Shown here: piece after piece, positions 11,499-30,817 of the stretch | Position numbering within the stretch: the stretch's first letter is position 1 | How the letters are laid out: each line of letters starts with the position of its first letter | Assembly: GCA_947037125.1 (NCBI GenBank) | Contig: CAMQTJ010000019.1 | Location: 1-37,443, forward strand | Reading direction: 5' to 3' | Source: an uncultured Holdemania sp. | GTDB lineage: Bacteria; Bacillota_I; Bacilli_A; Erysipelotrichales; Erysipelotrichaceae | Length of the DNA: 37,443 nt | The notes under the pieces: model-generated | What the model saw: the letters and a program-made list of their open reading frames with translations, nothing else | Database searches by the model: none | What the model was told of the DNA's origin: nothing | Position numbers and translations under genes: made by a program

Positions 11499-12872
11499 AT
11501 GATGTTTGATTCAATAATTTTTATATTTATTATGCTACCAATTTTATTAATATTAAGTTTATTAATTAAAAATAGAACATTATCTAACTTTATTATTTTT
11601 ATGTTTTCATTATTGTTTTACTATGTTAATGCTAATCAATTTATTTTCTTTATATTACTAGTATCATTAAGTGCATATATTGTGGGACTAATTATAGAAA
11701 AATCAAAGTATAAGAAAATTATTATGTTTTCGTTTCTTTCTTTTTTGATATTAAACTTAGCTTATTTTAAATATTTAAATTTTGCTATTTCAATAATTAA
11801 TAGAATAGCTAGCTTAGAAATAGGCATTATTAATATAATTTTACCTTTAGGTATTAGTTTTTATACTTTTCAAATTTATTCATATATTTATGATGTTTAC
11901 ATAGGTAAAATTAAAGCAGAAAAGAATATTTTGAATTTCTTTTTGTATTCTACTTTATTTACAACAATAACTTCAGGTCCGATTGTATTATATGCCGATA
12001 TACATGAAAATATAGTTAATAGGACATGTGATTTAAACAAAATTACACATGGTTTGCGAAGGTTCTTTTTAGGACTAATTAAAAAGATTTTAATTTCTAA
12101 TCAATTGTATGTTATTGTAAACCTTATTCTTACAAACAATGACGGTAATATATCAATGTTTGTTGCATGGGTTGGATTACTAACTATAGGGTTACAAATA
12201 TATTTTGATTTTTCATCTTATAGTGATATGTCAATAGGTATATGTCAAGCTTTAGGTCTTAATATAAAAGAAAATTTTAATTACCCATATGTATCTAAAA
12301 CAGTATCAGAGTTTTGGAGAAGATGGCATATTTCATTAGGGAATTGGTTTAAAGAATATATTTATTTTCCATTAGGAGGTAATCGTGTATCAACAAAAAA
12401 ATTAATATTTAATCTGTTTGTTGTCTGGTTTTTAACAGGACTTTGGCACGGTGCAAGTTTTAATTTTATTTTATGGGGAATGTATTTCTTTGTTATTTTA
12501 GTATTTGAAAAATTTGTTTTGTCTAAAATGAATTTAAATAAACACTTTTATAAAGGAATTTCAATTTTATTGGTATTGTTTAGTTGGGTAATATTCCAAT
12601 GTGACAGTATAAGAGATGTTTTATTATATGTAAAAAGTTTAATTAACATTACAAATCCAATGGCATTTATGGATTTAATCCAATATGAATTTATTTTAAA
12701 TATCCATATTTATTTGATTGCGGTTTTATTTGCTTTTAAACAATTTGATTTTTTAGCATTTGAGAACAAGCATACATTGATTACGGATATAGTTTTAATT
12801 GTTTTAACTTTTTTTGCAATAATGCATTTAATAAATGGTAGTTTTACACCATTTTTATATTTTCAATTTTAG
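11499..12872 (+). CDS. MBOAT-family O-acyltransferase 1 (AlgI/DltB-like)
   Basis: A 457-residue polytopic membrane protein of the MBOAT family. Hallmarks are SFYTFQIYSY near residue 122, the PYVSKTVSEFWRRWHISLG block near 264-282, YFPLGGNRV, and WFLTGLWHGAS with the invariant histidine at about 317. AlgI-type MBOATs pass acetyl groups across the membrane to an exported SGNH-like partner that acetylates a polysaccharide. The partner is probably the DHHW protein that starts 9 bases after this stop. GAGGTG (11486-11491) sets the start at 11499; the second MBOAT at 21111 aligns with this start. Confidence 0.9.
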   Translation: MMFDSIIFIFIMLPILLILSLLIKNRTLSNFIIFMFSLLFYYVNANQFIFFILLVSLSAYIVGLIIEKSKYKKIIMFSFLSFLILNLAYFKYLNFAISIINRIASLEIGIINIILPLGISFYTFQIYSYIYDVYIGKIKAEKNILNFFLYSTLFTTITSGPIVLYADIHENIVNRTCDLNKITHGLRRFFLGLIKKILISNQLYVIVNLILTNNDGNISMFVAWVGLLTIGLQIYFDFSSYSDMSIGICQALGLNIKENFNYPYVSKTVSEFWRRWHISLGNWFKEYIYFPLGGNRVSTKKLIFNLFVVWFLTGLWHGASFNFILWGMYFFVILVFEKFVLSKMNLNKHFYKGISILLVLFSWVIFQCDSIRDVLLYVKSLINITNPMAFMDLIQYEFILNIHIYLIAVLFAFKQFDFLAFENKHTLITDIVLIVLTFFAIMHLINGSFTPFLYFQF

Positions 12873-12881
12873 GAGGATCTT

Positions 12882-14111
12882 ATGGTTAAAAATAAATTTA
12901 TATTAATTGCTTATTTTATAATGTTCGTTATTTGTATAACAGTAACTATGGGTGGAGTTTTTCAAAATGAAATTTCAGAAAGTGAAAATAGAAAATTAGC
13001 GACAATTGATCAGTTAGATAGTAATTTATCTTTAATTGACAACTTTAATATACTTTCAAAAGTTAGCAGTGAACAATTTATTGGTAGAGAAGAATTAATT
13101 AAATCATATGCTAATATCGGAATTATGAAAAATGATATTGTAATATCAATGATTGGAGATAAAGCAGATAACATATTATTTGAATATGGAAATCACTATA
13201 AATTAGATGGTGAAGAATATATAATTGATAAACCTCTTGAAATAAGTGATCAAAAAAACCAAGCAATTGAAAACAGAATGTGGAATTTTGAAAGAATTGA
13301 TGATAAATATGGTGATGAGATTGAAATGTATATTTATCGTCCATTTAGTTCTAATGAAATACCTGATTTAATATATTCAAGCTGGGATGCTGATCAAACA
13401 AGTTATTATAGTGATATGTTTGATGCTAGATTGGGTGAACGCTATACTATAATGAATCAGCAAGTTTTGAATTATGAAGACTACAAATTAAAACACTTTA
13501 AAACAGATCACCACTGGAACTATAATGGAGCTTATCAAGGTTATAGTGATATAATCACAATGATTTCAAAGGATTTTGATATTGTTGAACCTTATCCTAT
13601 AGAAAGCGAGTCTTGTTTTGATGTTGAATTTTTTGGAAGTCTATCATTAAACTCAAATGGTTTATATGGTAGTGAGAGTTTTTGTGATTATAATCTAACT
13701 TCACCACGTAATTTTACTACAACAGTTAATGGTGAAGTTAAAGATGTTGGTGAATACGAAAAGTTTATAGAAAATATGGAATCTTGGAATGAATATATTT
13801 ATGAAGGCTATCATGGATTAAATAATCAAACTGTGCAATATGATTCATTAGATGAAAAAAATGATGTTAATCTACTAGTAATAGGTGATTCTTTTTCTAA
13901 TGCCATTACAGATGATTTGGCACTGCATTTTAATAAATTGTATAAAATAGATCCGCGACAATTTATAGATGAAAATGATCAATATAACACAACATTTTCT
14001 TTGGATGATTTTTTGTCGAATAATGATGTAGATGCTATACTTTTTTTACAATATTATGAAAGTGTTTTTTTTGATTCTAGAATGTATTTACATATTGAAC
14101 TAGATAAGTAA
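12882..14111 (+). CDS. DHHW/AlgX-like polysaccharide O-acetyltransferase 1
   Basis: The protein has 409 residues: one N-terminal signal anchor (about 5-25) and an extracytoplasmic domain. Visible motifs are ESENRKLA after the anchor (the E-NR-L box of the DHHW family), TDHHWN with D209 and H211, and IGDSFSN with S337. In AlgX/AlgJ a D-x-H plus Ser triad moves acetyl groups from the MBOAT partner to the glycan, and the same three residues are in place here. Cysteines C245 and C268 are conserved in all four copies of the window. A strong AGGAGG precedes the ATG and the gene follows MBOAT 1, forming a complete acetylation pair. Confidence 0.85.
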   Translation: MVKNKFILIAYFIMFVICITVTMGGVFQNEISESENRKLATIDQLDSNLSLIDNFNILSKVSSEQFIGREELIKSYANIGIMKNDIVISMIGDKADNILFEYGNHYKLDGEEYIIDKPLEISDQKNQAIENRMWNFERIDDKYGDEIEMYIYRPFSSNEIPDLIYSSWDADQTSYYSDMFDARLGERYTIMNQQVLNYEDYKLKHFKTDHHWNYNGAYQGYSDIITMISKDFDIVEPYPIESESCFDVEFFGSLSLNSNGLYGSESFCDYNLTSPRNFTTTVNGEVKDVGEYEKFIENMESWNEYIYEGYHGLNNQTVQYDSLDEKNDVNLLVIGDSFSNAITDDLALHFNKLYKIDPRQFIDENDQYNTTFSLDDFLSNNDVDAILFLQYYESVFFDSRMYLHIELDK

Positions 14112-14184: not shown

Positions 14185-14859
14185 ATGAAAGTATTAATAA
14201 TAATTCCTGCATATAATGAAGCAGATAGTATTGTAAAAGTAGTTAATGATATTAAATCTAATTGTATTAATTGCGATTACGTGATAATTAATGACTGTTC
14301 AACTGATAATACAAAGGAAATTGTAGAGGATAATAATTTTAATTGTATAAATTTACCTGTTAACTTAGGTTTGTCAGGTGCCGTGCAAACTGGGTATAAA
14401 TATGCATTAAAGTATAATTATGACTGTGCGATTCAATTTGATGGTGATGGGCAACATCAAGCTACATATATAGAAATTCTTAAAGCAAAAATTGTGGAAG
14501 GATATGATGTTGTTATAGGGTCTAGATTTTTAGATAATAAAAAGCCAATTTCAGCTCGTATGATAGGTAGTAGATTTATAACTATATTAATTAATATTTT
14601 TTGTGGACAAAAGATAAATGATCCCACAAGTGGTATGAGAATGTTGTCAAGAAATGCATTGCAGGAATGTGCATATAGTCATAATCGTAGACCAGAGCCG
14701 GATACTTTAGTATATTTAATTAGAAATAAGTATAAGGTATGTGAAGTTCAAGTTGAAATGATTGAAAGATTTGCAGGAATTAGTATTTATAGTGGTATAA
14801 CAAGTTCGTTAAAGTATATGGTGAAAATGACATTATCTATTATTTTTTTAGCAAAGTAA
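14185..14859 (+). CDS. GT2 polyprenyl-phosphate glycosyltransferase-like protein (DPM1 type)
   Basis: A 224-residue soluble-looking GT2 enzyme of the dolichyl-phosphate-mannose synthase group. It has IIPAYNEADSI at the start, INDCSTDNT near residue 36, NLGLSGAVQTGY near 64-75, D86-G-D88-GQH as the metal site, and the DPTSGMR segment near 150 that is typical of this group. It lacks the two C-terminal helices of GtrB-type enzymes. It would load a sugar onto polyprenyl phosphate for use by membrane GT-C enzymes. The DUF2304 gene that follows often accompanies such enzymes and may supply the membrane part. Confidence 0.8.
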   Translation: MKVLIIIPAYNEADSIVKVVNDIKSNCINCDYVIINDCSTDNTKEIVEDNNFNCINLPVNLGLSGAVQTGYKYALKYNYDCAIQFDGDGQHQATYIEILKAKIVEGYDVVIGSRFLDNKKPISARMIGSRFITILINIFCGQKINDPTSGMRMLSRNALQECAYSHNRRPEPDTLVYLIRNKYKVCEVQVEMIERFAGISIYSGITSSLKYMVKMTLSIIFLAK

Positions 14860-14893
14860 TATGTAATAAATTATGAGAATAAAGGGGGTTTAT

Positions 14894-15235
14894 ATGACAT
14901 ATCAATTGAGAATTATTGTAATGGTAGGAGTTTTTACTTTTTATTATATTATGGTAAGATATATCAGAAAATCTAAAATTAATGACGATTTTTCATTCAT
15001 TTGGCTATTATGGGGCTTAGGTTTAGTTTTATTAGGGTGTGCACCTGAATTATTTGAATTAGTTTCTAAGTTGTTAGGATTTTATGGCACTATTAACTCA
15101 ATATTTTTTGTGATGATTGCGGCAAATTATTGTATATTGTTTTATTTATATATTAAAACCGCAATTATTGAAAATAAGTTGAAAGATTTAATTCAGCATA
15201 CATCAATAAAGGATGTTAAAATAAAGGATAATTGA
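14894..15235 (+). CDS. DUF2304-family small membrane protein
   Basis: The protein has 113 residues and three hydrophobic helices (about 5-22, 34-53, 65-88) and a charged C-terminal tail, matching the size and pattern of DUF2304 proteins. An in-frame ATG 21 bases earlier (14873) is possible, but AAAGGGGG at 14881-14888 sits at the right distance only for the ATG at 14894. The family is commonly found next to DPM-type GT2 genes, as here. Its function is not known; a membrane-anchoring or flippase role is a guess. A terminator lies about 100 bases after the stop. Confidence 0.75.
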   Translation: MTYQLRIIVMVGVFTFYYIMVRYIRKSKINDDFSFIWLLWGLGLVLLGCAPELFELVSKLLGFYGTINSIFFVMIAANYCILFYLYIKTAIIENKLKDLIQHTSIKDVKIKDN

Positions 15236-15336
15236 TAAAAATTAGTGAAATAATTATATGGGGTATATCATCTTAAATAAGTTGTATGTATTAACATCTA
15301 CATTTATTAAGGATTTAATTAATATCGGTAATATTT

Positions 15337-15371
15337 AAAAGGTGGTATTGTTTATATCGCCTTTTTCTTTG
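15337..15371 (+). terminator. Rho-independent terminator after the DUF2304 gene
   Basis: Stem aaaaggtggtat with atatcgcctttt (two G-U pairs), four- to six-base loop, followed by a T-rich tail (15361-15371). Confidence 0.75.
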
Positions 15372-15974
15372 TTTATTACTAGTGAATTATTGATAAGTAG
15401 TAATAATGGAATAAGTTATATATGTTAAATTTCCTTTTGTTACATATAAATTATAATATTAATAAATCTTTTAAAGTTGCGTAACAAAAAATAAAATATT
15501 TGGTATTATATTTAAATAATTGCTAATAATTTATTCATAAATAGATGAAATTACATTTAAAGAAAATTTTTTATTGATTTAACTTGATTATATAATTTGA
15601 AATTTGTAATTTTTAGTGATATTAAAAAAACAATAATAAATATAGATTTATTTTTAAATATAATTTATAATTATATGATATACGAATGATTATCTATGTT
15701 TAGTTAAAAATGTAATTTAATATTGATCTAACTAAAATTCGTATTGATATTTTATGTTTGTGTATTTTTAAAATTTTAATTTTTTGTAAATGATTAGATA
15801 TTTAATGCGAAGCTGTTGTATTATAATTTGAAGAATAAAAAATAGTTGAAATAATTTAAATTTTTGACTTAATAATGCTATTATTTAATTTAAAATGCAT
15901 GAGATATTAAAAAATGATTAATTTTCTAATTTTTTTATTGCACTAAAAAACATTTTGGCCTTAGAATAAATTAA

Positions 15975-16082
15975 TCAATATATTTTTATTGTAATGGTAA
16001 CTATTATGCTTTATTACCTTATGGGTATGAATGGTGTGTTGATATTGGTTTGTTAAGCGAAATGTACTGGGAAAATTATTAG
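15975..16082 (+). pseudogene. Possible remnant of a decayed gene
   Basis: An open frame without a start codon ends with TAG at 16080-16082. It reads through NGNYYALLPYGYEWCVDIG and continues to a Trp-Glu-Asn-Tyr end. The richness in Gly, Trp, Cys and Pro is unlike random translation of this AT-rich DNA. A stop lies directly before it, and another short coding-like stretch (LKNILALE) ends just upstream at about 15969. I do not recognise the family. Confidence 0.22.
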
Positions 16083-16132
16083 TGAAAATTTTAATAGGGT
16101 ATAAATAGATAGGGTTATAATTTTTAAAAAAT

Positions 16133-16161
16133 TTGCACAAATCAGTTATTTTTGTTAAAAT
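16133..16161 (+). promoter_or_regulatory. Promoter of the 16182-22514 operon
   Basis: TTGCAC (16133-16138), 17-base spacer, then TAAAAT (16156-16161) with an upstream TG (16153-16154). This is the most complete two-box promoter in the window. Confidence 0.55.
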
Positions 16162-16181
16162 TGTAAAGGAAGGTAATGTAT

Positions 16182-17792
16182 ATGAATGTTTTGAAAAGAC
16201 AATCTTTTAGTATTTTATTCAACGTTTTTATGACAATATTTATTCAGTCAATTCTATTTTTGCTGAATTTAGAAGTTTCAATATTTTCGGTTATTTTGGC
16301 TGCAGTTTTATATTTAATTTATAGTTATTATTTTATTGATCATAAAAGCTTTACCAAAAAAAGTTTTCTTAGTTTATTTATTTATTTTTTAATTATATTT
16401 AGTTTATTTTGTTATTTTTCAATGTTTGTTGAAACAACTTATGATGGCGGATACTATCATGGTAATGCAATGGTTGAAATGCTTAACGGTTGGAATCCAT
16501 TTTTAGAAGCGAATAATTATCAAGAAACAAAAGTGACAATTTGGGCGGATTATTATCCTAAGGCAAGTTGGATATTTTCTGCTGTATATATTAAAATGTT
16601 TAAGCATTTAAGTGCTGGAATGATAATGAATACACTAATTAATATTTCATTATTATTATATGCCTATGATTTTATTGTAAGAAGAAGTAAAAATCATAAA
16701 TTAGCAACTATTGTTTGTATTTGTTTGTTTTTTAATCCAATTGTAATTGAACAAATGCATACTTATTATATTGATGGTTTATTAGGTAATTTAAGTATTT
16801 TATTATTGCTAGTTGGTTGTGATATAATTGAAGATTATGATATTAATAATAATATTTTAGTTCTTATTATATCAATTATTCTTATTAACTTAAAATTTAC
16901 AGGATTTGGGTTTGCAGGAATTATCAATTTATTTATTTGGTTTGCTCTTTTATATAAAAAAGACTATAAATCATTTAAAGTTTATACTTTATTTGGAGTT
17001 TTAATGTTATTTATTTCAATATTTATTATAGGTTATAGTCCTTATTTTATAAATATATCAAATTTAAGACATATATTTTATCCAATTGCTGGTAAAGATA
17101 AGCAAGATGTTGTTACATATTTAATACCGGAAGTATTAGTCAATACAAATCCGATTCATAAATTAATATATTCGATGACAAGTGGTCAAGGAATTATTAA
17201 TTCTTTGATTGATCTATCTCCTCAAACTTATTTGGTCTATGATGAAAGAATTGGAGCTTTTGGAAATATGTTTTCTAAAATCGTTCTTATTTGTACATTT
17301 ATTTATAGTGCTTATGTTGTAAAATATGCCAAGAAGTTAGATATGCGATATGTTTTATTATTTATCGGATTATTAGCAAGTATTATTGCGAATTATCAAA
17401 ATATTTGGTGGTTTAGATACGCACCACAAATTTGGTTATTAGTAGTAATTGCAATATATATGTGCTATTTGAATTCAAAAACTAAAATCATAGCTCATAT
17501 ACTACTTATTTTAATTATGTATCAAGGTATTTTTATTCTTTACCATACAGTTGATAATGACTTTGCTAAAAGTCAATCAGTGCTTGTAAATTATGAAACA
17601 TTGAGTAATAAAAGCTTTGATGCAGCAATAGTAAATAATGATATGAGTGATGTTTATTGGTTTGATGCATTTGAAATGTACAGAGCAAAACAATATGGTG
17701 TTACTTTAAATAGTATCAGCCATGATCTTAATTTAGATAGTAGTGCACAATGTTATTTCATGCATTCTTATAAATTATGTGAAATTGAATAG
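16182..17792 (+). CDS. GT-C-like polytopic membrane glycosyltransferase
   Basis: The protein has 536 residues and about ten to twelve helices. The first large outside loop carries TYDGGYYHGNAM with an aspartate at about residue 88, in the position where GT-C enzymes hold their catalytic acid. I cannot name the exact family. GT-C enzymes use polyprenyl-phosphate sugars outside the membrane, so the polyprenyl-phosphate GT2 just upstream and the UbiA gene just downstream fit. Two ATGs compete: 16176 and 16182. AAAGGAAGG ends at 16173, so 16182 has the better spacing; the earlier start would add Met-Tyr. Next gene 13 bases on. Confidence 0.65.
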   Translation: MNVLKRQSFSILFNVFMTIFIQSILFLLNLEVSIFSVILAAVLYLIYSYYFIDHKSFTKKSFLSLFIYFLIIFSLFCYFSMFVETTYDGGYYHGNAMVEMLNGWNPFLEANNYQETKVTIWADYYPKASWIFSAVYIKMFKHLSAGMIMNTLINISLLLYAYDFIVRRSKNHKLATIVCICLFFNPIVIEQMHTYYIDGLLGNLSILLLLVGCDIIEDYDINNNILVLIISIILINLKFTGFGFAGIINLFIWFALLYKKDYKSFKVYTLFGVLMLFISIFIIGYSPYFINISNLRHIFYPIAGKDKQDVVTYLIPEVLVNTNPIHKLIYSMTSGQGIINSLIDLSPQTYLVYDERIGAFGNMFSKIVLICTFIYSAYVVKYAKKLDMRYVLLFIGLLASIIANYQNIWWFRYAPQIWLLVVIAIYMCYLNSKTKIIAHILLILIMYQGIFILYHTVDNDFAKSQSVLVNYETLSNKSFDAAIVNNDMSDVYWFDAFEMYRAKQYGVTLNSISHDLNLDSSAQCYFMHSYKLCEIE

Positions 17793-17805: not shown

Positions 17806-18657
17806 ATGAAAAGTTATTTAAAATTATTACGCGTTAAGCATTATATTAAAAATGGATTTATTTTTGTACCATTAATCTTTTCGATGAATTACACTAACTT
17901 GAATCTATGGGTTAATACGATTTATGCATTTATATTATTTTCAATAATGGCTTCAATAATTTACGTTATCAATGATATTGTAGATGTTGAAAAAGATCGT
18001 CAGCATGCAACTAAAAAAAATCGTCCATTAGCTAGTAAAAAAATATCAATTACTTCAGCTAAAATCTTAGTTTGTGTTTTAATTGTTATATTCACATTAA
18101 TTTCGATTCTTGTAAAAAATAATGCTGTAGTTTTTATAACTTTAGCGTATTTTATAATGAACATTGCATACAGTTTTAAACTTAAAAATATAGTTATAAT
18201 TGATGTCTTTATTATTTCAATGGGTTTTTTACTTAGAGTATTTGCAGGTGCTGCAGCAATTGATGTCGTGGTTTCTGAATGGTTACTACTTACGACATTT
18301 GCTATTTCTTTATTTTTAGGATTTGGTAAACGATACGGTGAAAAGAAAAGAATGAAAAGCAAAACTTCACGTCAAGTTTTAATGGATTATTCATTAGAAT
18401 CATTAAAATGTTTTATGCAAGTATCATTAACTTTAACAATTGTCTTTTATTCTTTGTATGCAACAATTGGTCATTCAAGTATAAATAATGTTGTGTTTAC
18501 TGTTCCAATTGTAGTTATAGCAATATTTCGTTATTACATGTTGTTGGAAAGTGATATAATTGATGGAGACCCTACGGAAGTTATATTGAATGACATTGTT
18601 TTGCAACTAATAGTATTATCATATGTTATTTTAGTTGGATTTTTAATCGTAGTTTAG
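17806..18657 (+). CDS. UbiA-family prenyltransferase (decaprenyl-phosphate phosphoribosyltransferase-like)
   Basis: A 283-residue membrane protein with about eight helices. The first acidic motif is N56-D-I-V-D60-V-E-K-D64 followed by NRPLAS; the second region has YSFKLKN and an aspartate at about 133, followed by LLRVFAGA. This pattern matches the branch of UbiA that contains mycobacterial Rv3806c, which joins phosphoribose from PRPP to decaprenyl phosphate, rather than quinone or heme enzymes. In a glycan locus this predicts a lipid-linked pentofuranose donor. The usual oxidoreductase partners for arabinose formation (DprE1/DprE2) are not in the window. AGGAG precedes the ATG, and the gene lies 10 bases before DHHW gene 2. 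Confidence 0.8.
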   Translation: MKSYLKLLRVKHYIKNGFIFVPLIFSMNYTNLNLWVNTIYAFILFSIMASIIYVINDIVDVEKDRQHATKKNRPLASKKISITSAKILVCVLIVIFTLISILVKNNAVVFITLAYFIMNIAYSFKLKNIVIIDVFIISMGFLLRVFAGAAAIDVVVSEWLLLTTFAISLFLGFGKRYGEKKRMKSKTSRQVLMDYSLESLKCFMQVSLTLTIVFYSLYATIGHSSINNVVFTVPIVVIAIFRYYMLLESDIIDGDPTEVILNDIVLQLIVLSYVILVGFLIVV

Positions 18658-18667
18658 GAGAATATAA

Positions 18668-19897
18668 ATGAAAAAAAGAAATATATTATTTTCACTTATT
18701 TTAACAACTTCATTAGTAGTTATATGTATTTTAACTATATTTAGTCCACAAAAAACAATATCATTAGAAGAGAATCGTAAATTATCTACATTTATAATGC
18801 CTGATATTAAAAATGTTATAGATGGTTCATTTCAGACTACATTTGAAAAGGCGGTTTCAGATCAGTTTGTTAATAGACAAAGTTATATAAATAACTATAC
18901 GAGTTTAAATGCTTTTTTGAAAAATATAATTGCAATTACGCAAAATAAAGATATGTCACTCGTAAGTATTTCGGATGATGGTATATATAAAGTATCTAAT
19001 GAAGGATCATGGCTTGCTGAGTTTCCTTTTTTGAAAGAAGATGGTTTGATTAGCATGCTTGAAAAAAGGATTTTTAATTATAATGAAATACAAAAATATC
19101 ACGATGATACTGATTTTTTCTTGTTTAAAGTTACTAATTCCCGTGATACTAATTTTTTTGATACAGACAATGAAATATTAGGAGCAGGTAATTTTTATTC
19201 TTCTTGGATTCAAAAAGAAATTCACCCAAGTATTAGCTATCATGAAACATTGTATAATAGCTTTGAAGAATATAAACTTTATAATTATAAAACTGATCAC
19301 CATTGGAATGCTGAAGGTGCAAAAAAGGGATATAAGGAATTAATTACTCAAATATCAAGTAAATATCCACAAATCGGACTACCTAAGGATTCGGATGTTA
19401 AGTTATGCTCTGGTGTTCAATTTTATGGTTCATATGCGAAAAGAAGCAACTATAATATTGATTTAGATGAATATGATACATTGTGTGATTATGTATATGA
19501 ATTAGATGAGCATGAAATATTTATTAATGGTGAACAAGTTGAACAATTAGGTCTTGTTGATGAGTATTTAAATGATATATATGAAGATGATATCAAAGTA
19601 AACCATTATCGCGAAATGTTTGGAGCAGACAAAGGTGAAGTTGTGTTTGACTTTGGTGATAATACCGGAGTAAATGCGCTTATTATATCAGACTCTTACT
19701 CTAATGCAATTAAACCTGTAGTTGCCTCACATTTTGATAAGACACATTATGTTGATTTAAGACATTATGAACTTGATAATGGGAGTACCTTTAATTTAAA
19801 GCTTTATCTTAGTGATAATGATATCGATTTGGTTGTTTATATGGGAGGACTATTTAACATATATATGGAAGAAATATATATGATAAATTTATATTAA
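18668..19897 (+). CDS. DHHW/AlgX-like polysaccharide O-acetyltransferase 2
   Basis: A 409-residue protein with an N-terminal membrane anchor and an extracytoplasmic SGNH-like domain. It keeps LEENRKLS, TDHHWN with D210 and H212, and SDSYSN with S343, so the D-x-H and Ser catalytic set is complete although the Gly of GDS is replaced by Ser. C247 and C273 match the cysteine pair of the other copies. Its start overlaps the AGGAG that ends the UbiA gene. It is followed after 1 base by DHHW gene 3 and then by MBOAT 2, its likely acetyl supplier. Confidence 0.82.
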   Translation: MKKRNILFSLILTTSLVVICILTIFSPQKTISLEENRKLSTFIMPDIKNVIDGSFQTTFEKAVSDQFVNRQSYINNYTSLNAFLKNIIAITQNKDMSLVSISDDGIYKVSNEGSWLAEFPFLKEDGLISMLEKRIFNYNEIQKYHDDTDFFLFKVTNSRDTNFFDTDNEILGAGNFYSSWIQKEIHPSISYHETLYNSFEEYKLYNYKTDHHWNAEGAKKGYKELITQISSKYPQIGLPKDSDVKLCSGVQFYGSYAKRSNYNIDLDEYDTLCDYVYELDEHEIFINGEQVEQLGLVDEYLNDIYEDDIKVNHYREMFGADKGEVVFDFGDNTGVNALIISDSYSNAIKPVVASHFDKTHYVDLRHYELDNGSTFNLKLYLSDNDIDLVVYMGGLFNIYMEEIYMINLY

Positions 19898-19898
19898 T

Positions 19899-21098
19899 AT
19901 GAAAAAAAGAAATATATTTATATCTTTATTGTTTACACTTATTTTATGTTTTGTATTTGTTTACGTAATATTTCTAAAGACTCCTAATGAAAAATTATCT
20001 ATGGAGGGTAGAGTAGCAAATAAATTTATTGCACCTACTATTTATAATATCAAAGATGGTTCATTTCAAAGTTCATTTGAAAATGCGATGACAGATCAGT
20101 TTATGAAAAGAGAAGTATTTTTAAAAATTTATTATCGATATGATTATTTCTTAAATAGAATTAGTGTTATTGATAAGGGTGAATATTCTTTAGTTAAAAT
20201 TGGGGACAATGTTTATACATTTGATGCTGCAAAAGATTATTTATTAGAATTTCCATTATTTAAGCGTAATGACATGGAAGAAGGCATCGTTAATATAACT
20301 AATAATATTAATGATATTTCGAATAAGTATCCGGATATCAATATGTATGTATATAAACCATTACGTTTGAATGAAGCTGATATTTTTGATGAAGATAATG
20401 ATTTTAGTGCTTATGGACCTGTTTATGAAGATTTATTTAAATCTTCGTTAAATGAAGATGTTCAATATGGTACTAATGGCTTTGTCAGTTTAGAGGATTA
20501 TAAAGCGAAGTATTATATGACAGATCCACATTGGAATAATGTTGGAGCTGATGAAGGATATCGCCAAATTGTGGATATGTTTAATGTTAATTATGGTAAT
20601 ATTGAATATGCAACATATGATTCAGAGTATTGTTTTGATGAATTTGAATATTATGGTCAATATGGACGTGGTTCAGCTTATCAAACTAAAGGGGATACGT
20701 TTTGCGATTATAATTATCAATTAGAAGATTATACAACAATTGTTAATGGTGAACAGAAACAATATGATGCAAAAGATCAATTTAAAAATAACACAATAGA
20801 TAGTTATAGTTGGAATTTTATGTATAGTATTTATCATGGAAATGATGAAGCAGAAATAATATTTGAATTTGATCAAAATACTAATAGAAACTTACTAGTA
20901 TTTACCGATTCATATGCAGGTCCAATTAAAAATTTACTTGCTTCGCACTTTGATAAAACTTATTATATAGATCCTAGAATTAATCCGGACTTTGTATTAA
21001 GTGATTATTTAGAACAAAATGAAATTACAGATATATTATATTTAGGTTTTTTTGGATCATTATATTCTACGCCTGAATATGTGTTTTCTGATTATTAG
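19899..21098 (+). CDS. DHHW/AlgX-like polysaccharide O-acetyltransferase 3 (DPHW variant)
   Basis: The protein has 399 residues, an N-terminal anchor and an extracytoplasmic domain. The E-NR-L box is reduced to SMEGRVAN. The catalytic motif reads TDPHWN (D209, H211) and the Ser motif reads TDSYAG (S338). Since AlgX uses only the Asp and the second His of this motif, the copy may still be active. C245 and C269 are conserved. It starts 1 base after gene 2 with no clear ribosome binding site, so coupled translation is likely. It is closest to the copy at 29618 (shared FAPT/KPT-type start region, FENA, DQ segments). Confidence 0.8.
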   Translation: MKKRNIFISLLFTLILCFVFVYVIFLKTPNEKLSMEGRVANKFIAPTIYNIKDGSFQSSFENAMTDQFMKREVFLKIYYRYDYFLNRISVIDKGEYSLVKIGDNVYTFDAAKDYLLEFPLFKRNDMEEGIVNITNNINDISNKYPDINMYVYKPLRLNEADIFDEDNDFSAYGPVYEDLFKSSLNEDVQYGTNGFVSLEDYKAKYYMTDPHWNNVGADEGYRQIVDMFNVNYGNIEYATYDSEYCFDEFEYYGQYGRGSAYQTKGDTFCDYNYQLEDYTTIVNGEQKQYDAKDQFKNNTIDSYSWNFMYSIYHGNDEAEIIFEFDQNTNRNLLVFTDSYAGPIKNLLASHFDKTYYIDPRINPDFVLSDYLEQNEITDILYLGFFGSLYSTPEYVFSDY

Positions 21099-27721: not shown

Positions 27722-28687
27722 ATGAATGTTTATGATTTTGATGAAACAATTTATAATGGAGACTCGACAAAGGATTTTCTTAAGTTTCTAATTAAAAAAA
27801 ATAAGAAAGCTTTAATATATTTACCTAATATAGGATTTAGTTTTACGAAATATATTTTATCATTAAATAGTAAAGAGAACGTCAAAGAGTCTGTTTATCA
27901 AATATTTTCATTGTTCGACGACATAAATAAAGAAGTTATTGAATTTTGGGATATAAATCAAAATAAAATTAAACCATTTTATTTAAAACAAATGAAAAAC
28001 GATGATTTAATAATTAGTGCATCTCCACAGTTTTTACTTGAGGAATTATGTACTAGATTAAATGTAAATATTATTGCTTCTTTAGTTGATGTAAAGACAG
28101 GTAAGTGTTTAAGTAAAAATTGTTATGGGGATAATAAAGTTGTAAGATTTAAACTTTTATTTCCAAATGATAAAATAAATGTTTTTTATTCTGATTCATT
28201 TTCAGATCAACCAATTGCGGATATAAGTGAAAAATCATTTATCGTTAAAAAAGATGATATTTATCCTTGGAATGAATATGAAGAATCGAAAAAAGATAAA
28301 ATTATAAAAATGTTTTTTAGTAAAGATTTTATTATGTTTTTAATTATTGGTGTTATCAATACATTCAATGGAACATTTTTTGCGTTAATTTTTAGTTCAT
28401 GGGTTAATGAGAATTTCGCATTTGTAATTGGTTACTTAATATCGTTATCGATAGGTTATTTGTTGAATAGTATTATTATATTTAAAAATAAATTAAATAT
28501 AAAGAAATTTATCAAATATTGTATTTCATATATTCCTAATTTTATTGTACAATATATTGTAGTTTATATTTTATTTAATGTTTTAGGGTGGTATAAATTA
28601 TTCGCTTATGCTACAGCTGCAATTATAGGAATACCAATAACATTTTTATTGTTGAAATTATTTGCATTTTCTAAAAAGGAGGATTAA
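27722..28687 (+). CDS. Fusion of a HAD-type phosphatase with a GtrA-family flippase domain
   Basis: A 321-residue protein with two parts. Residues 1 to about 190 form a HAD hydrolase of the phosphoserine-phosphatase type: motif I is D5-F-D7-E-T, motif II is ISASPQF near 99, the motif III lysine is in GDNKVVRF near 139, and motif IV is YSDSFSDQPIAD near 157-168. Residues from about 200 to the end have four helices typical of GtrA (GVINTFNGTFFALIF; LSIGYLLNSIIIFKN; ATAAIIGIPITFLLLKLFAF). GtrA proteins are thought to flip polyprenyl-phosphate sugars. The phosphatase domain would face the cytoplasm. A GtrB-like gene follows after 2 bases. The HAD substrate is unknown. Confidence 0.82.
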   Translation: MNVYDFDETIYNGDSTKDFLKFLIKKNKKALIYLPNIGFSFTKYILSLNSKENVKESVYQIFSLFDDINKEVIEFWDINQNKIKPFYLKQMKNDDLIISASPQFLLEELCTRLNVNIIASLVDVKTGKCLSKNCYGDNKVVRFKLLFPNDKINVFYSDSFSDQPIADISEKSFIVKKDDIYPWNEYEESKKDKIIKMFFSKDFIMFLIIGVINTFNGTFFALIFSSWVNENFAFVIGYLISLSIGYLLNSIIIFKNKLNIKKFIKYCISYIPNFIVQYIVVYILFNVLGWYKLFAYATAAIIGIPITFLLLKLFAFSKKED

Positions 28688-28689
28688 TC

Positions 28690-29616
28690 GTGAAATTATC
28701 AATTATAGTACCATGTTATAATGAAGAAAAAGTTGTTAGTTTATTTTATGAAGAAGTAATGAAGTACATAGGTGTTGGAAAAACTATTAGCGATTATGAA
28801 TTGATTTTTGTTAATGATGGAAGTAAAGATCAAACTCTTAGTGAGTGTTTGAAGTTAAAAGATATTGATAGTAGGATTGTAATTATAGAATTTAGTCGTA
28901 ATTTTGGAAAAGAAGCTGCAATGCTTGCAGGTCTTAAACATGCTGTTGGTGACCTTTGTGTTATTATGGATGTAGACTTACAAGATCCACCAAAGTTATT
29001 ACCTGAAATGTATAATTTAATTGTTAATGATAAATATGATTCTGTTGCTACATATCGTGTCGATCGTAAAGGTGAGCCACCTATACGTAGTTTTTTTGCT
29101 CGTAAATTTTATCAAATGATCAATAAAATGTCTGATATCGACATTGTGGATGGGGCACGTGATTATCGTATGATGACAAGAGATATGGTTGATGCTATTA
29201 TCCAAATGCCAGAATATCATAGATTTTCGAAAGGTATTTTTTCTTGGGTTGGTTTTGATACAAAATTTTTAGAATATGAAAATGTTGAAAGAGTTGCCGG
29301 TGAAACTAAATGGAGCTTTTTTAAATTGTTTAAGTATGCAATTGAAGGTTTAGTTGCATTTACGACTTTTCCGTTGCGTTTAGCAACATTTATGGGATTA
29401 TTTGTTTCTTTTTGTGGGTTTATGTATATGATATTTATATTCTTAAAAGCTATCTTTATTGGTGATCCTGTAAGTGGATTTCCTTCTTTAATTGTGATTA
29501 TTACATTAATGGGTGGAATTCAATTAATTGTTATTGGTGTAATTGGAGAATATTTATCAAAGACTTACATGGAAAGTAAGAAAAGACCAAATTTTATAGT
29601 AAAGAAAAAATATTAA
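28690..29616 (+). CDS. GtrB/CsbB-type polyprenyl-phosphate glycosyltransferase
   Basis: A 308-residue GT2 protein with two C-terminal helices (about 235-255 and 270-290). Motifs are SIIVPCYNEEKVV, VNDGSKDQT near residue 37, SRNFGKEAAMLAGL near 72-85, the metal site D94-V-D96-LQD99, and VDGARDYRMM near 155-164; an Arg-rich RVAGETKWS segment precedes the helices. This is the full GtrB/CsbB/Dpm architecture, which loads a sugar on undecaprenyl phosphate at the inner face. Start is GTG with AAAGGAGGA in front. It lies directly after the GtrA fusion, its likely flippase, and the YfhO-like protein is a candidate final transferase. Confidence 0.88.
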   Translation: MKLSIIVPCYNEEKVVSLFYEEVMKYIGVGKTISDYELIFVNDGSKDQTLSECLKLKDIDSRIVIIEFSRNFGKEAAMLAGLKHAVGDLCVIMDVDLQDPPKLLPEMYNLIVNDKYDSVATYRVDRKGEPPIRSFFARKFYQMINKMSDIDIVDGARDYRMMTRDMVDAIIQMPEYHRFSKGIFSWVGFDTKFLEYENVERVAGETKWSFFKLFKYAIEGLVAFTTFPLRLATFMGLFVSFCGFMYMIFIFLKAIFIGDPVSGFPSLIVIITLMGGIQLIVIGVIGEYLSKTYMESKKRPNFIVKKKY

Positions 29617-29617
29617 T

Positions 29618-30817
29618 ATGAAGAATTTAAGGAATAGAATTTTTTGTTTTACTTATTTATTTTTATGCATAAGTGTGTTGATTTTAACTTTATTTAAACA
29701 ACAAACCACATTTTTAGATATGGAAAAAAGAGATGCTCATCAATTTATTAAGCCAACAATTACTAATGTGTTAGATTTTCATTTTCAATATACTTTTGAA
29801 AATGCTCTAATTGATCAAATACCATTAAGAGAGAAATTTTTGACTTTTAATAGACAAGTTGATTATGGACTGAATTCAATATCTGTTATGAGCGAGAGTG
29901 ATTTAGCGTTGATAAATGCAGGGCCAAATGTTTATACTTTCGATAAACTTGATGGTTATTTGACTGAATATCCAATTCAAAAGGATAGTAACAGGGAAAA
30001 TGGTGCGATAAATGCTAGTAATAGTATTAATAATCTAGCTGAATATTATACTGATTTGAATTTTTATGTATTTAAGCCATATAAATTAAATGAAACAAAT
30101 ATATTTGATGATGTAAACGGAATAGATTCAAAGGGGATGTATTATAATGAACTTTTTGTTTCATTATTGGATGATGATATTCAATATGCAACGGATTTTT
30201 CATTAGATTTAGATTATTATGAACAACATTATTTCAAAACAGATGCACATTGGAATGCTTTAGGGGCTTATAATGGTTATTTGAAAATAGCAGATATGTT
30301 TAATAATAATTATGGTGATATTGAACCAAAAAACAATATTAAACAATATTGTTTACCTAATTTTGATTATTATGGATTATATGGAAGACAGACAGCATTT
30401 ATATTTGATGGTGAACCATTTTGTGATGTTATTTATGATTTACCTGAGTATTTAACATTCTTCAACGGAGCTATAGATCAATATGATAATAAAAATGATT
30501 TTATTGAAAATGGTGTTAGTGTAGACAAGAATGCAGTATTTTATGATTTATATTACGGGCTTAATATGAATGAAGTGGTTTTTATCAATCCCACAGTTGA
30601 AAATGGTAGAAATCTTTTGGTTTTTAATGATTCATATGTTAATCCAATAAAGCCTGTTATTTCAAGTCATTTTGAAAAAACAATATTCATTGACTTAAGA
30701 AAATATCCTGGGTTTGATATTGATTTATATATTAGTGATAATAATATTACGGATGTTTTATATTTAGTTACATCAGGATCATTGTTTGATGGTACTAGTT
30801 ATCATTTGAAGGGGTGA
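29618..30817 (+). CDS. DHHW/AlgX-like polysaccharide O-acetyltransferase 4 (DAHW variant)
   Basis: A 399-residue protein with an N-terminal anchor and an extracytoplasmic domain. The catalytic motif is TDAHWN (D209, H211) and the Ser motif is FNDSYVN (S339). The E-NR-L box is degenerate (MEKRDAHQF). C245 and C269 match the other copies exactly in spacing. It has the same length as copy 3 and shares its start context, a stop codon, one base and then ATG with no clear ribosome binding site, so it is probably translated by coupling to the GtrB gene. No MBOAT gene lies beside it, so it must share one of the two in the window or do something else. Confidence 0.78.
   Translation: MKNLRNRIFCFTYLFLCISVLILTLFKQQTTFLDMEKRDAHQFIKPTITNVLDFHFQYTFENALIDQIPLREKFLTFNRQVDYGLNSISVMSESDLALINAGPNVYTFDKLDGYLTEYPIQKDSNRENGAINASNSINNLAEYYTDLNFYVFKPYKLNETNIFDDVNGIDSKGMYYNELFVSLLDDDIQYATDFSLDLDYYEQHYFKTDAHWNALGAYNGYLKIADMFNNNYGDIEPKNNIKQYCLPNFDYYGLYGRQTAFIFDGEPFCDVIYDLPEYLTFFNGAIDQYDNKNDFIENGVSVDKNAVFYDLYYGLNMNEVVFINPTVENGRNLLVFNDSYVNPIKPVISSHFEKTIFIDLRKYPGFDIDLYISDNNITDVLYLVTSGSLFDGTSYHLKG

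Follow-up and report, generated by a model that had tools for sequence, protein, structure and literature searches.

The window analyzed here is a 37,443-nucleotide stretch of DNA from an uncultured Holdemania sp. Within it, a candidate GT-C gene, a UbiA-family gene, and a gene for a HAD-GtrA fusion protein lie in one cluster (Table 1). The first-pass annotation had described the fusion as one 321-residue protein joining a GtrA domain to a full HAD active site, and Pfam, a motif alignment, and an AlphaFold2 model bear this out. Both domains scored above the curated Pfam cut-offs (PF12710, 54.2 bits vs 27; PF04138, 45.4 bits vs 26.1). Among NCBIfam models, the HAD-IB family TIGR01488 was barely exceeded (45.9 bits vs 45), and the narrower TIGR01490 stayed below its cut-off (50.6 vs 98.3). 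Catalytic motifs I-IV (DxD, S, K, D...D) are complete in the HAD domain, and the corresponding residues D5, D7, S99, K139, S157, D158, and D162 are invariant in an alignment of 20 fusions. On the opposite strand of 27722-28687, the frame that was read is interrupted by stops throughout.

Table 1. Coordinates of the features discussed in the text
Feature	Coordinates	Strand	Details
Candidate GT-C pentofuranosyltransferase	16176..17792	+	538 aa, multi-pass; 13 bp upstream of UbiA; homologues near UbiA
UbiA-family polyprenyl-phosphate phosphoribosyltransferase (predicted), DPPR-synthase-like	17806..18657	+	Assigned from structure matches, residues, and NCBIfam
HAD-GtrA fusion protein	27722..28687	+	Single open frame, 321 aa
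HAD-IB phosphatase domain, residues 3-166	27728..28219	+	PF12710; proposed polyprenyl-phospho-5-phosphoribose 5-phosphatase
GtrA domain, residues 206-316	28337..28669	+	PF04138; four transmembrane helices; proposed flippase
GT2 polyprenyl-phosphate-hexose synthase, PgfS/CsbB type	28690..29616	+	2 bp after the fusion

The AlphaFold2 model of the fusion has a mean pLDDT of 90 and resolves the GtrA part into helices 201-224, 230-253, 260-287, and 292-315. In Foldseek searches, its nearest PDB folds were HAD-IB phosphatases (3fvv, SerB), and it also matched the dolichyl-phosphate-mannose synthase 5mlz, whose membrane part belongs to the GtrA family. A sequence search of solved structures with the fusion as query returned no meaningful match. 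Because the loop charges follow a positive-inside pattern, the predicted topology puts the HAD domain in the cytoplasm, the side on which a lipid carrying 5-phosphoribose would be synthesized.

Many other assemblies carry the same fusion in frame, among them those of the isolates Clostridium puniceum DSM 2619, Clostridium sp. SM-530-WT-3G, Desulfosporosinus nitroreducens, and Erysipelotrichaceae OH741_COT-311. Its recurrence in these isolates and in several MAGs rules out an assembly artefact, which the earlier reading had raised as a concern. That reading had also held that GtrA proteins are normally stand-alone. This is not always so, because GtrA domains occur in frames of about 350 aa in the same family (e.g. 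G021:C38:48711, G027:C33:3170, and G036:C14:6156). These frames are absent from the full-length HAD-GtrA profile matches and are probably other fusions, such as GT2-GtrA.

The UbiA gene proved to be as first described. The only PDB matches of its product were 8j8j/8j8k, the DPPR synthase of M. tuberculosis (E 1.4e-36). The catalytic pattern NDxxDxxxD and R..E is present, and N56, D57, D60, D64, R176, and E179 match the residue set studied in Citrobacter ORF15 (PMC11127046). The protein missed the NCBIfam equivalog cut-offs of NF008977 (219.2 vs 234) and NF008978 (192 vs 207), which were nonetheless its best-scoring families; a UbiA homologue adjoining an unfused HAD in locus L126 clears NF008978 (211.7 vs 207), unlike the window protein. 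The closest solved structures and the catalytic residues together mark it as a predicted polyprenyl-phosphate phosphoribosyltransferase.

The assignment of the gene upstream of UbiA is weak. Its product had no Pfam match, and its model (pLDDT 52) retrieved mostly GT-C enzymes as top PDB matches, all non-significant at E 0.15 or worse. Homologues are encoded next to UbiA or close by in L093, L094, L096/L101, L160, and L216. This context, together with the weak fold matches of a poor model, hints at a GT-C enzyme. Large multi-pass proteins adjoining UbiA and HAD(-GtrA) fall into three families: the group of the window protein, that of L111/L122/L126/L195, and that of L105/L107/L120. BLAST detected no similarity between the three, which suggests different acceptors or enzymes.

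Several neighbors describe the wider cluster. At 14185-15235, a second GT2 (DPM1-like) is paired with a DUF2304 membrane protein (14873); the pair recurs in L216 and is likely another polyprenyl-phosphate-sugar system in the same cluster. Between the DUF2304 gene and the candidate GT-C gene, 940 bp (15236-16175) contain no gene-sized frame, and Rfam gave no match in the window, this interval included. Four DHHW/AlgX-related or similar proteins (12882-14111, 18668-21098, and 29618-30817) and MBOAT proteins at 11499 and 21111 suggest O-acylation of a polymer. A YfhO-like protein is also present.

The link between the fusion and UbiA was quantified in two samples. Among 273 Erysipelotrichaceae genomes, the full fusion occurred in four (G000, G032, G039, and G122), all of which carried UbiA, compared with 5 of the 269 others (UbiA matches at E < 1e-50). 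In a phylum sample of 295 genomes, the counts were 4/4 and 2/291. Fisher tests gave 5.6e-7 and 4.9e-8, respectively. These values are uncorrected for shared descent, and relatedness among the genomes, an overlap of three of the four fusion genomes between the samples, and possible movement of the genes together as a single cluster make them overstate independence. Co-occurrence and gene order thus uphold the association that the first-pass annotation had proposed, as far as the window and its UbiA-linked relatives are concerned.

A broader scan covered about 85,000 GTDB species genomes, and its best 80 matches comprised 20 fusions and 60 stand-alone HADs. The earlier reading had asked whether fusions occur mostly in genomes without UbiA; among these best 80 matches, UbiA was missing for 10 of the 20, which counts against a pentofuranose role for the fusion as a whole. 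In the GtrA tree, nine of these ten fall together in a single sub-branch (support 81/99), and seven of the ten adjoin ispD and/or ispF. Either the substrate changed in this branch, or the fusion originally had a role other than the one linked to UbiA. HAD-GtrA or stand-alone HAD genes lie beside ispD and/or ispF in L112, L114-L119, L149, and L183 (the last two being stand-alone HADs), and the fusion genomes among these are without a phosphoribosyltransferase UbiA. This neighborhood, along with a weak similarity to phosphatidylglycerophosphatase C, would fit a HAD domain whose substrate is the phosphate of an isoprenoid or phospholipid with no relation to ribose; a part in polyprenyl-phosphate supply would be one example. 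We regard that as very improbable for the protein studied here: the window and the UbiA-linked fusions have no ispD/ispF context, the UbiA-less fusions are mostly confined to their sub-branch, and the PgpC model scored far under its cut-off on the fusion (26.9 vs 259).

Gene order outside the family was informative. The gene immediately upstream of the fusion is UbiA in Clostridium L105-L107, L111, Desulfosporosinus L120, Lentisphaera L123, and L216; by taxon, this order appears in three Clostridium, one Clostridia MAG, Desulfosporosinus, a Bacillales MAG, and Lentisphaera. In the Bacillales locus (L122), the called start is later than the match, which leaves the N-terminus of the fusion unsure. 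L216 is a compact locus with UbiA, HAD-GtrA, and a PgfS-like GT2, in which a homologue of the candidate GT-C protein neighbors UbiA and the fusion. G584, a genome from a different family of the window's class, unites at a single locus UbiA, the fusion, a homologue of the candidate GT-C protein, a PgfS-like GT2, and a sulfatase.

The modules also occur apart. A Lactococcus plasmid encodes a 534-aa membrane protein, UbiA, HAD, and GtrA as consecutive separate genes. In Rhizobium (L198), a single HAD-UbiA protein is encoded ahead of GtrA, an FAD oxidoreductase, and an SDR; this provides an instance of the HAD fusions to UbiA-type enzymes that had been cited from elsewhere. The same modules are thus found in three arrangements, a classical sign of a shared pathway. 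On the Lactococcus plasmid (pLLF27D), the GtrA frame (L195:7071-7322) spans 83 aa and model positions 2-68 of 117; it may be truncated, and the other frames held no clear continuation.

Unfused HADs of the same subfamily adjoin UbiA in 9 of the 60 stand-alone matches (L126, L141, L144, L145, L150, L160, L168, L169, and L177). In the HAD tree, these tend to group, with modest support, with the UbiA-linked fusions and not with two large unlinked HAD groups; the resolution of this tree is too weak for dating the fusion. The GtrA tree (support 95/95, with only nine stand-alone rows) suggests that the fusion arose once among the sampled rows. Same-subfamily HADs are also found beside Hsp90, RecX, DUF5685, and ispDF genes, and because so many occur in unrelated contexts, family membership does not fix the HAD substrate.

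We consider it probable that HAD-GtrA is the phosphatase-plus-flippase part of a three-component extracytoplasmic pentofuranose system that makes polyprenyl-P-ribose, a variant of the system of Kelly et al. 2024. Based on the observed domains, active-site residues, gene linkage, and distribution, we infer the substrates, step order, flipping, coupling, and chemistry as follows. UbiA would make polyprenyl-P-ribose-5-P, from which the HAD domain would remove the 5-phosphate to give polyprenyl-P-ribofuranose. The attached GtrA domain would carry this lipid to the outer face, where a GT-C enzyme, most likely the candidate upstream of UbiA, would add ribofuranose to the surface polymer of the cluster. 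There is a precedent for the phosphatase step: the UbiA-fused HAD of Citrobacter youngae ORF15 is needed for normal 5-phosphate removal, and a D18A variant made the phosphorylated product with a small dephosphorylated remainder (PMC11127046). Against the proposal, hhalign finds only a distant relationship between the fusion's HAD domain and that of HAD-UbiA proteins (probability 94%, 19% identity), and the system of Kelly et al. has a MATE protein rather than GtrA as its flippase.

The identity of the sugar had been left as ribose or arabinose. A DprE1-type oxidase (PF04030) was found in none of the 11 fusion genomes with UbiA, while control genomes were positive. Ribose is therefore the likelier pentose, arabinose is unlikely, and we rejected an arabinose route as the default.

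Another difficulty for the pentofuranose proposal is local: in the window, the fusion lies about 9 kb from UbiA and adjoins a hexose-type GT2. The PgfS model NF047588 scored 328 bits on this GT2, below its cut-off of 500. The GtrA domain might instead serve this neighbor as in GtcA/CsbB/YfhO systems, with the HAD domain acting elsewhere or as an accessory and the UbiA link arising as a by-product of a shared polymer cluster. In each of the four Erysipelotrichaceae fusion loci, a GT2 with about 70% identity does directly follow the fusion; the fusion holds the only GtrA above cut-off in this genome; and several C55-P sugars are substrates of GtcA (PMC7389260). We nevertheless judge a role for GtrA confined to the GT2 improbable, given that the Clostridium, Desulfosporosinus, L111, and Lentisphaera fusions have UbiA and no GT2 neighbor, that unfused HADs adjoin UbiA too, and that the HAD domain would be left unexplained.

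The adjacent GT2 can also be accommodated within the pentofuranose proposal. Because the next-door gene is of the hexose type, the single GtrA may serve two donors, exporting both polyprenyl-P-ribose and the polyprenyl-P-hexose of this GT2. This is plausible because Listeria GtcA handles more than one C55-P sugar (PMC7389260), and it agrees with the presence of both lipid-sugar synthases alongside one GtrA and with the joint occurrence of UbiA, HAD-GtrA, and a PgfS-like GT2 in L216. Two observations weigh on the other side: the DUF2304 protein beside the second GT2 could be another flippase, and G032 and G039 carry an extra stand-alone GtrA. We put sharing forward tentatively, as a serious possibility. 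More doubtful is a stricter form, a coupled phosphatase-flippase in which 5-phosphate removal would license or drive the movement of polyprenyl-P-ribose, so that no phosphorylated lipid escapes, while the same domain would export the hexose donor of the GT2.

The protein thus probably ties together two steps of surface-sugar decoration, removal of the phosphate from a ribose lipid and its outward flipping. The first-pass annotation had predicted a pentose route in a Bacillota-type genome. Genomic evidence supports the link between HAD-GtrA and UbiA on which this prediction rested. Since Kelly et al. 2024 (PMC11127046) had already predicted gram-positive carriers of the pentofuranose pathway, the novelty is confined to the fusion. 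In open-access PMC text, we found no description of a HAD-GtrA fusion and nothing on undecaprenyl-ribofuranose with a phosphoribosyltransferase in Firmicutes. According to Kelly et al., direct flippase evidence is missing for GtrA-type transporters. A natural fusion to the enzyme that would act one step earlier links GtrA with a single predicted substrate (polyprenyl-P-ribose) and would allow a GtrA-type flippase to be assayed as one protein. The fusion could also mark, at the sequence level, Bacillota with ribose-bearing surface polymers; many glycans of this kind in the phylum have yet to be characterized.

Four known systems can be compared with this cluster. GtcA/CsbB/YfhO lipoteichoic acid glycosylation resembles it in placing a GtrA protein beside a GT2 polyprenyl-P-sugar synthase, and in the YfhO-like protein; it differs in having no phosphatase domain and in drawing its donor from a UDP-sugar rather than PRPP. 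The mycobacterial decaprenyl-P-arabinose route (Rv3806c, Rv3807c, DprE1/E2, and Rv3789) shares the DPPR synthase homologue and a small GtrA-type proposed exporter, Rv3789, whereas Rv3807c is unrelated to HAD phosphatases (PMC11127046) and no DprE1-type oxidase was found in the 11 fusion genomes with UbiA. The Rhizobium operon (PRK08238/NF006088 with a separate GtrA) has the same three domains, with HAD on the synthase instead of the flippase, and its FAD oxidoreductase and SDR could make arabinose. The Citrobacter youngae O1/O2 system (Kelly et al. 2024, PMC11127046) joins HAD to UbiA, uses a MATE-type flippase, and has a GT-C enzyme of family GT136; in the window, HAD is fused to GtrA, UbiA is separate, and the GT-C enzyme is a candidate. 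Both nevertheless combine a UbiA-type polyprenyl phosphoribosyltransferase, a HAD 5-phosphatase, a flippase, and a GT-C-type enzyme, as far as these functions can be predicted for the window.
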